Below, piece after piece: positions 23,236 to 26,561 of a stretch of 32,835 nt of DNA. Source of the stretch: Bacteroidales bacterium (GTDB lineage Bacteria; Bacteroidota; Bacteroidia; Bacteroidales; PWNQ01); NCBI GenBank assembly GCA_003557725.1, contig PWNQ01000115.1, positions 1 through 32,835 of the forward strand. Reading direction: 5' to 3'. Below the pieces are notes generated by a model, which saw only the letters and a program-made list of their open reading frames with translations, searched no databases and was not told the DNA's origin. A program made the translations under genes and the position numbers. How positions within the stretch are numbered: position 1 is the stretch's first letter; each line of letters begins with the position of its first letter.

Positions 23236-24567
23236 TCAATGACGTTTCTTTAGCTTTTCCGTTTCTTTTTCATATCCCGGCTTGCCCAAAAGGGCAAACA
23301 TATTGTTTTTATAGGCCTCCACTCCCGGCTGGTCAAAAGGGTTCACCTTCAAAAGGTAGCCACTAAGGGCACACGCATATTGAAAAAAGAATATTAGCTT
23401 GCCCAGGTTATACTCGTCAGCCTGCGGTATACCTAGTTGTATAACCGGGACTCCCCCGTCCACATGAGCCATGATGGTGCCTGTTTCAGCCCGGTGGTTA
23501 ATCTCATTAACAGAAAGCCCGGTCAAATAGTTCAGTTTATCCAGATTTTGATCATCCTCCGGCACATTGACAACATGCCTGGCCTTTTCCACATGGATAA
23601 CCGTTTCAAAAAGGTTTCTTTCTCCTTCCTGGATATACTGTCCCAATGAGTGCAGGTCGGTGGTAAAAGATACCGCTGCGGGGAATATGCCTTTATGCTC
23701 TTTGCCTTCACTTTCGCCAAAAAGTTGTTTCCACCATTCGGCAAAGTAATGCCACATGGGGTCATAGCAGGCCATAATCTCTGTGGTCTTGCCCTTTTGA
23801 TACAGTGCATTTCTGGCAGCAGCGTACATAAAAGCTTCGTTATTATCCAGGGTATTATTGTTCATCAGTCGCTCCCGCATATCTTTTGCCCCCTTCAGCA
23901 GTTGGTGGATATCTTTCCCTGCCATTGCCACCGGAAACAGCCCCACGGCCGTCAACACAGAGTATCTTCCTCCCACGTCATCCGGCACCACATAGGAGCT
24001 GTACCCCTGTTCCCGGGTTAGTTTCCTGAGGGCTCCTCCTTCTTTATCGGTAATGGCCACAATACGTTTACGGGCTCCGTGCTGGCCATATTTCTTCTCC
24101 AGCTCTCCACGCAAAAGACTGAAGGCCAAAGCTGGCTCAGTGGTTGTCCCCGACTTGGAGATCACCACTAAAGCAAAGTCCTTATGACTAACCATCTCCA
24201 TAAGGTCATGGAGATAGCCGGAAGAAAGGTTATGACCTGCATAAACTATATGGGGCTTTTCTTCCGGCAGCATATGGCTGAAGTTGTGCTTCAGCACCTC
24301 TATGACCGCACGGCCCCCCAGGTAGGAGCCCCCAATCCCCACCACAATAAAGACATCCACCATGGGAACCAACCGCTCCATATCATCCCTGATGGCCGCA
24401 AGCTCACCAGTATCCATGCCAACAGGAACATCCAGCCAGCCCAAAAAATCACTGCCGGCACCCGTACCCGAATGTAACTGCTGCTGAAACTCCTTCAACG
24501 GGCCTTCAAAACGCTGAAGATCTTCCCTGGAAACCTTATTAAGAACCTGACTAACATTTATTTGCAT
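23236..24567 (-). CDS. pgi: glucose-6-phosphate isomerase
   Basis: Interconverts glucose-6-phosphate and fructose-6-phosphate. The 443-residue length matches the short bacterial type (Bacillus-like). Motifs: VVGIGGSYLGGRAVIEVL, the phosphate-binding SKSGTTTEPALAFSLLR, catalytic Glu in the LFGESEGKEHKGI region, and C-terminal SGYLLKVNPFDQPGVEAYK with the conserved Lys. The gene is preceded by a 485-bp structured spacer with a minus-strand terminator and possible promoter, so expression may be controlled in the leader. It is followed at once by the divergent pgk. Confidence 0.97.
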   Translation of the reverse strand: MQINVSQVLNKVSREDLQRFEGPLKEFQQQLHSGTGAGSDFLGWLDVPVGMDTGELAAIRDDMERLVPMVDVFIVVGIGGSYLGGRAVIEVLKHNFSHMLPEEKPHIVYAGHNLSSGYLHDLMEMVSHKDFALVVISKSGTTTEPALAFSLLRGELEKKYGQHGARKRIVAITDKEGGALRKLTREQGYSSYVVPDDVGGRYSVLTAVGLFPVAMAGKDIHQLLKGAKDMRERLMNNNTLDNNEAFMYAAARNALYQKGKTTEIMACYDPMWHYFAEWWKQLFGESEGKEHKGIFPAAVSFTTDLHSLGQYIQEGERNLFETVIHVEKARHVVNVPEDDQNLDKLNYLTGLSVNEINHRAETGTIMAHVDGGVPVIQLGIPQADEYNLGKLIFFFQYACALSGYLLKVNPFDQPGVEAYKNNMFALLGKPGYEKETEKLKKRH

Positions 24568-24646
24568 ATCGTGTGGATTTTTGTTTTCACAAGGTGAAGA
24601 TAATAATAATCACTGAGTTTGGTCTAAAAACACACATTTTTCACAT

Positions 24647-24739
24647 CCGCTGAAAATCAGCTTTGCCCCATCCCTAAAGGGTGGCTGATTTTCAGCGGCT
24701 TCACCCTTTAGGGCCGGGGCAAAAAGCCGCTGAAAATCA
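24647..24739. repeat. interlocking inverted repeats (A-B-A'-B'-A'') upstream of pgi
   Basis: The order is A (24647-24661, CCGCTGAAAATCAGC), B (24662-24683), A' (24684-24698, perfect reverse complement of A), CTT, B' (24702-24723, reverse complement of B at 20 of 22 positions), AAG, and A'' (24727-24739, first 13 bases of A). Three exclusive hairpins result. A:A' has 15 bp with B as loop. B:B' has A' as loop. A'-CTT:AAG-A'' is 15 bp perfect (GATTTTCAGCGGCTT) with B' as loop. B and B' each hold a small CCCTAAAGGG-type palindrome. Flanking TCTAAAAA (24623) and TTTTTAGA (24749) add a weak outer pair. Confidence 0.9.
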
Positions 24740-24793
24740 AAAGTAACCTTTTTAGATTGGGCTCATCACTGAATTGAGTAAATTCCCGGAAGG

Positions 24794-24825
24794 CAAAAAA
24801 AAAGGCAGATGGATCATCTGCCTTT
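24794..24825 (-). terminator. strong intrinsic terminator, minus strand, ahead of pgi
   Basis: AAAGGCAGATG and CATCTGCCTTT form an 11-bp stem with a 3-nt loop. On the minus strand it is followed by a run of nine T, whereas on the plus strand the run is broken by CCC. No minus-strand gene lies between it and the divergent plus-strand kinase gene, so it would end an RNA that starts inside the spacer. Confidence 0.85.
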
Positions 24826-24945
24826 CCCTAAAAAAACACATAAAAAAACAACATAAAAACACGAAATGTCAAACATTTAGCTGAGATAACTTCATTTTAC
24901 AGGCAGCTGTCACATTATTATGACCGTCTTTTCTGTACGACGATA

Positions 24946-25052: not shown

Positions 25053-26561
25053 ATGAATAAGCGTAGTATTGTTTCCATCATCATCCTTGCCGCTACCTCC
25101 ATGCTAGGGCTCATTGTTTTACAGCATCACTGGATACGTACCGGCATAGAGACCCGCCAGATCAGCTTTGAGGAATCGGTGGATGGTGCCATGAGCAATA
25201 TAACCATTGAAATTGAGAAGCAGCAGGTTATGCGACGCCTTCAGGATCGTTTTCACTCTGCCCGGGATATTTCGGATTTGGTAGACACGCTTTATGTGCT
25301 CAAGAAAGTGTTGGCCGACAATGAAGAGCAATATCCTTTTGAAGAAAAGGAGTCTGCTTTTCAGGCATCGGGTGGTTTTGGCCGGGAGTACAGCTTCGAT
25401 GAGAGCCTGTTGCGCAAGGAAGAGCTACAGCGTCTTCTTAGCCGGTCTGCCGTATTGACTAATTTGTTTCTGGACCTGATAGGCCCCGAACAAGAGGAAA
25501 TAGCCCCCCTACATGAAAGCACGGAATATCTGGACAGTCTGATAACCCACCATCTTAAGAAAAAAGGCCTGGAAACTCCCTTTGTTTTCGGCATTATGTC
25601 TCCGCCATACCGCACGTTTAGTTATCTCTCCCGGGAACAGTATGAAGAAGAAGTGAAAGAGAGTTTGTTTTCATATGATCTTTACCCCAGGGATATTTTT
25701 CGTGAACCGGTATACCTTAATATATATTTCCCAAAAAGCCATGCATATTTACTAAGCCAGATGGCTACCATGCTTATCTTATCCATATTGCTTATTGCCA
25801 TATTGGTATATGCCTTTTACTATACGGTCCATACCATCTTCCGGCAAAAGCGGCTTTCAGAGATGAAGAATGACTTTATCAACAACATGACCCATGAGTT
25901 TAAAACGCCCATATCCACCATTTCATTGGCGTGTCAAGCATTGCGTGACGATGACATTCCCCGGGATATAAGCCTTTATGACAGCTACATAGGCGTTATA
26001 GATGAAGAAAATAGCCGACTGGGCAGTATGGCAGAGAAAATACTTCAAACGGCTATTATTGACAAAGGAGCCCTGGAGCTAAAACCGGAAGTGATCAATA
26101 TGCACGAGGTGGTGAATAACGCCATCGCCAAGATCAAGATGCAGGTAGAACAGAAAGATGGAGTTATCACCCCGGTGTTTGAAGCCCATAATCCTATGGT
26201 GAAAGCGGATAAGTTTCATATGGCCAGTGTGGTATTCAACCTTCTGGATAATGCCAATAAATATAGCTTTGACCGGCCGGAAATAACCATCCGAACCCGC
26301 AACAAACCTAACGGAATACAGGTGGAAATTAGTGACAATGGCATTGGCATCAGCCAGGCCAACCAAAAAAAGATCTTTGATAAACTATACCGCGTGCCTA
26401 CGGGAAACCTGCACAATGCAAAGGGATTCGGACTTGGGCTGAGCTATGTCAAAGCCATCATTGATAAGCATAATGGCCGTATTGAGGTGCAAAGCGAAAT
26501 AAACAAAGGGGCCACCTTTATATTCTTTATCCCATTCAAACCCCAAAATAACCATGAATAG
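25053..26561 (+). CDS. RprX-like membrane sensor histidine kinase
   Basis: A 502-residue inner-membrane kinase. Membrane span 1 is at about 5-24 (IVSIIILAATSMLGLIVLQ). A periplasmic domain of about 205 residues follows, then span 2 at about 233-262 (MATMLILSILLIAILVYAF). The HisKA domain has phosphoacceptor H281 in NDFINNMTHEFKTPIS. The HATPase domain has VVFNLLDNANKY (N box), VEISDNGIGI (G1) and GFGLGLSYVKAIID (G2). Its arrangement, and the regulator that overlaps it by 8 bp, match the Bacteroides RprX/RprY pair. The ligand is unknown. The start is the first Met after a good promoter. Confidence 0.92.
   Translation: MNKRSIVSIIILAATSMLGLIVLQHHWIRTGIETRQISFEESVDGAMSNITIEIEKQQVMRRLQDRFHSARDISDLVDTLYVLKKVLADNEEQYPFEEKESAFQASGGFGREYSFDESLLRKEELQRLLSRSAVLTNLFLDLIGPEQEEIAPLHESTEYLDSLITHHLKKKGLETPFVFGIMSPPYRTFSYLSREQYEEEVKESLFSYDLYPRDIFREPVYLNIYFPKSHAYLLSQMATMLILSILLIAILVYAFYYTVHTIFRQKRLSEMKNDFINNMTHEFKTPISTISLACQALRDDDIPRDISLYDSYIGVIDEENSRLGSMAEKILQTAIIDKGALELKPEVINMHEVVNNAIAKIKMQVEQKDGVITPVFEAHNPMVKADKFHMASVVFNLLDNANKYSFDRPEITIRTRNKPNGIQVEISDNGIGISQANQKKIFDKLYRVPTGNLHNAKGFGLGLSYVKAIIDKHNGRIEVQSEINKGATFIFFIPFKPQNNHE

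Follow-up and report, generated by a model that had tools for sequence, protein, structure and literature searches.

Interlocked hairpins upstream of pgi in a Bacteroidales genome as the core of a dispersed MITE

The window analyzed here is a stretch of 32,835 nucleotides (contig PWNQ01000115.1, assembly GCA_003557725.1) from a Bacteroidales bacterium. It includes an open reading frame at 23236-24567 on the minus strand that encodes glucose-6-phosphate isomerase (pgi), with a pgi-sense intrinsic terminator upstream of it at about 24795-24829 (minus strand), and the spacer between this terminator and the pgi start is non-coding, as the first-pass annotation had described it. No sense gene precedes the terminator, the neighbor being a divergent histidine kinase at 25053. 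When the whole window was searched against Rfam, two tRNAs were the only hits at gathering score, and the spacer gave sub-threshold matches only.

Within this spacer, five segments in the order A-B-A'-B'-A'' had been proposed to form three long hairpins. An inverted-repeat search recovered A:A' as a perfect pairing of 15 bp (24647-24661/24684-24698, 100%) and B:B' with 20 of 22 positions paired (24662-24683/24702-24723). The third pairing, A'CTT:AAGA'', is perfect as claimed but is 16 bp long (24686-24701/24724-24739) rather than 15 bp. Neighboring pairings are mutually exclusive, and the alternative hairpins arise from the segment order itself. Folding of 24647-24739 gave a z-score of about -6 on each strand, including the minus-strand RNA for which such a check had been suggested, and on neither strand was any of 200 shuffled sequences equally stable. 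All three of the interlocked inverted repeats exist, and they go far beyond what chance would give. In the predicted single-strand fold, a long B:B' hairpin with A' in its loop is dominant.

The repeated unit was located correctly by the first-pass annotation, but its limits of 24647-24739 (93 bp) are too narrow: the true unit spans 24615-24764, with a 6-bp duplication on each side (Table 1). When copies are laid side by side, similarity ends sharply at GAGTCC..GGACTC and the flanks are unrelated. The terminal inverted repeats are near-perfect over 16 bp, with the consensus GAGTCC[A/G][A/G]TCTAAAAA... The unit carries no gene, and at 150-151 or 70 bp, the two sizes in which it occurs, it is too short for a transposase.

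Table 1. Features of the element and its flanks (positions in the window; the orientation of the element is arbitrary)
Feature	Position	Strand	Remarks
Left target-site duplication, ATCACT	24609-24614		Same as 24765-24770
Complete MITE, long form, 150 bp; left end ...CACACATTTTTCACATC	24615-24764	+	Limits from copies with unrelated flanks
Left terminal inverted repeat, GAGTTTGGTCTAAAAA	24615-24630	+	Family consensus GAGTCCRRTCTAAAAA; 280 genome ends vs. 7 in the control
Arm A	24647-24661	+	Begins with the 13-bp left direct repeat, CCGCTGAAAATCA, that bounds the 81-bp segment absent from the short form
Arm B, TTTGCCCCATCCCTAAAGGGTG	24662-24683	+	
Arm A' plus CTT	24684-24701	+	Inverted copy of A
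Arm B'	24702-24723	+	Complement of B, 20/22 in the window copy
Arm A''	24724-24739	+	Repeats A in direct orientation; 24727-24739 match 24647-24659 exactly
Right terminal inverted repeat, TTTTTAGATTGGGCTC on the plus strand	24749-24764	-	
Right target-site duplication, ATCACT	24765-24770		Perfect 6-bp match to the left one

The genome to which the window belongs (2.8 Mb, 236 contigs) contains at least 40 scored long copies, that of the window included, in both orientations and with 93-100% identity across the matched stretch; 206 candidates had passed the first look. Allowing two mismatches at most, the terminal repeat is matched about 280 times in the genome, as against 7 times for a reversed-pattern control. 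Among 43 complete copies, 21 have identical 6-mers on either side of the element and 30 have 6-mers that agree in at least five of six positions, whereas in a control of mismatched pairs identity was found in 18 of 1806 (1%). Most of the duplications are AT-rich and have the form ANNNNT, although most sites are fitted equally well by an alternative description, in which the element extends one base further on either side (TGAGTCC..GGACTCA) and a 4-bp duplication lies inside an A....T target. Almost all of the elements examined are intergenic; among the 20 long copies with both neighbors callable, 10 lie between divergent, nine between tandem and one between convergent genes. Copies mostly differ from the consensus at only 2-5 of 151 positions, which points to recent amplification. 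Many long copies run into contig ends and many contigs break inside a copy, so that the assembly probably owes part of its fragmentation to the repeat. A search for further copies of the 93-bp unit had been proposed as a test, many dispersed ones being the mark of a repeat element, and the near-identical copies with target-site duplications bear out the dispersed intergenic repeat family that had been named as the main alternative to a switch. With terminal inverted repeats and a target-site duplication, a short length (within the 50-1000 bp range of such elements) without a transposase gene, and multiple dispersed, mostly intergenic copies, as is characteristic of MITEs, 24615-24764 is almost certainly a MITE that has the hairpins as its core and is dispersed across the genome.

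This assignment has to be weighed against two other explanations of the palindromes. The mutually exclusive hairpins might control pgi expression in cis from the minus-strand leader, as an RNA attenuator or as the switch first suggested; the element lies 47 bp 5' of the pgi ATG, a position within the 5' leader provided that transcription begins further upstream, and the minus-strand RNA fold is very stable. Such a role is nevertheless very improbable, as the same sequence occurs in both orientations at about 40 unrelated loci, is assigned to no Rfam family at gathering score, and is missing from the pgi leaders of the two congeneric genomes, G001 and G002, and of the other relatives that were read. 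The MITE family is present in G001 and G002 at other sites. The distance from the terminator to the pgi ATG is 261 bp in the window as compared with 101 bp in G001 and 99 bp in G002, and subtraction of 156 bp (the 150-bp element plus a 6-bp duplication) leaves 105 bp; this agreement indicates that the element inserted between pgi and a terminator that was already in place. The idea of an ancestral pgi regulator is already contradicted by these observations, and a false riboswitch candidate is thereby removed. Could the repeats instead be palindromes of the REP/BIME type, whose hairpins are the substrate of a mobilizing Y1 (RAYT) transposase? They are indeed palindromic, intergenic and dispersed, and the genome encodes two Y1_Tnp proteins. 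The REP/RAYT mechanism involves single-stranded DNA and HUH enzymes and yields no duplication. A Y1/RAYT origin was rejected because the long terminal inverted repeats are accompanied by 6-bp target-site duplications; in addition, a 70-bp form without most of the palindromes has its own duplications, so that this origin is exceedingly improbable.

The terminator itself is a separate matter. It is found about 100 bp before pgi in the three congeneric genomes (-105 in the window after subtraction of the MITE, -101 and -99), with hairpin sequences that all differ; in the window, where no sense gene precedes it, it is possibly an attenuator or the source of a short leader RNA. Strong terminators are situated 54-117 bp before pgi in three further genomes of this order as well (loci L243, L242 and L246), where they may simply end an upstream gene.

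The MITE family comprises two size classes, of 150-151 bp and 70 bp, both with their own target-site duplications. The 70-bp form corresponds to the long form minus exactly 81 bp between the direct repeats in A (24647-24659) and A'' (24727-24739). In the congeneric G001 and G002, elements of about 71 bp have the same ends, and G001 also has long elements of about 157-162 bp that contain the core. The two classes are most simply linked if replication slippage across the hairpin deleted the segment between A and A'', after which the 70-bp product would have spread by itself. The direction from long to short is our inference, and a reverse route, from short to long by template switching, is a possible alternative. 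G002 (L173, contig C72, 14322-14761) also holds an element of 440 bp, in which these terminal repeats enclose an interior that is longer and unrelated.

How would such an element without a gene be mobilized? Presumably a DDE-type transposase supplied in trans was responsible, one that would recognize the GAGTCCRRTCTAAAAA ends and cut AT-rich ANNNNT targets. As a rule, a MITE has its ends in common with the autonomous insertion sequence that mobilizes it. A survey of the ends of candidate parent transposases, which covered the PF01609 family only and was made in MAG assemblies, which drop repeated insertion sequences, found one protein in the own genome, a member of the IS1634 family whose terminal repeats differ from those of the MITE, and 15 loci in nine relatives, none of them with MITE ends. 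Nor was a transposase reading frame recognized by eye next to single-sided terminal-repeat matches in the relatives. The IS1634-family protein, the one PF01609 member found in the own genome, has 594 amino acids and is encoded at 316-2100 of locus L136 (G000, contig C148), where it is flanked by the inverted repeats CTAGCGTGAGTTTATTA.

The terminal repeat, with at most one mismatch, is present in 23 of 60 relatives across the order, and four of these are rich in matches (181 in G057, 71 in G015, 47 in G037 and 17 in G012); in those of their elements that were read, the interiors differ. One stretch of 1172 bp between inverted repeats of the GAGGCTGTCTCAAAA type (L211 in G048, 1501-2672) may be a relative of larger size or an autonomous element carrying such ends. 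The core is also found in other Bacteroidetes MAGs (NC_groundwater_1710, Go_SlDig_bin_165, HGW-Bacteroidetes-21 and UR.bin227), where the enclosing elements have ends of type GAGTCCACTCCGAAAA or GAGGCTGTC(T)CAAAA; on visual inspection, several GAGGCTG elements lack an obvious duplication. Relative to the window family, four of the cores from other MAGs are 78-88% identical and their terminal repeats 71-76%, the core value being inflated by a contig scan that demanded exact matches to CCCTAAAGGG and GCTGATTTTCAGC. The invariance of these 23 core letters is thus largely due to construction, and the informative parts are the outer part of B, B', A and A'' only. In 12 cores, 91% of the paired cells hold standard pairs, as compared with 47-63% when the partners are slid. 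Compensatory changes in the arms, which had been named as a further check, were found at four doubly changed pairs; three of these belong to the outer A':A'' stem and the fourth is B position 4, at which three sequences carry A-U in place of G-C. The shuffle control was mixed, with a covariation score as high in 0 of 500 shuffles and as many doubly changed pairs in 107 of 500, and the core is partly fixed by the search pattern. The alignment lends modest support, short of proof, to maintenance of the core structure.

As a point against the simple MITE reading, conservation of the core between genera exceeds what a passively carried interior would require. One explanation sees in the 81 bp of the core a palindromic cassette in its own right, with its own means of spread or its own function, that was taken up by MITEs with different ends. 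The same core within elements ending in GAGTCCRGTCTAAAAA, GAGTCCACTCCGAAAA and GAGGCTGTCTCAAAA, the existence of GAGTCCRGTCTAAAAA- or GAGGCTGTCTCAAAA-ended elements with other interiors, and the exact equivalence of the short form to the long form minus the core would all suit a cassette. However, the terminal repeats look related at their 71-76% identity, so that a common ancestry of whole elements whose ends diverged fits too, and no free-standing intact core was seen in a non-systematic look; a separate cassette seems rather unlikely. In a similar vein, and as a tentative suggestion to which we give low credence, the A-B-A'-B'-A'' core may be a functional, separable module that is gained and lost as an exact 81-bp unit between direct repeats and is kept, with compensatory changes, in MITEs from several Bacteroidetes lineages with diverged ends, since its alternative hairpins aid spread, for example through single-strand exposure or template switching in replication.

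This high-copy MITE family, which extends across a bacterial order, probably contributes to the fragmentation of metagenome assemblies. Its two exact size classes, together with a core common to different ends, make it well suited to testing ideas on the origin, deletion and retention of palindromic MITE interiors. A literature search with the terminal-repeat sequence gave no match. BrickBuilt of Porphyromonas gingivalis is likewise a Bacteroidetes MITE with a repetitive interior and loosely similar GAG..C...AAAA ends, and its terminal repeats have been matched to IS5-family ISPg elements; its interior is a 23-nt tandem repeat instead of an inverted-repeat core, and its duplications vary from 2 to several bp, whereas those of the window family are of 6 bp (PMC4596501). 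MITECca01 of Cardinium is also abundant in a member of the Bacteroidetes and was derived from an insertion sequence, the IS982-family ISCca4; it differs in its length of about 240 bp, and nested palindromes are not described in the parts of the source consulted (PMC9769881). REP/BIME sequences share the dispersed, intergenic palindromes but lack the terminal inverted repeats and target duplications, both of which the window element has (PMC3733652). Prokaryotic MITEs as reviewed, with Chunjie, MITEAba12, Correia and ERIC as examples (PMC10969869), are like the window element short, non-coding and intergenic, with terminal inverted repeats and target duplications, and they too insert at AT-rich targets, reach high copy numbers, occur in size variants with common ends and form strong secondary structures; what sets the window element apart from them is its core, a nested palindrome of five segments.
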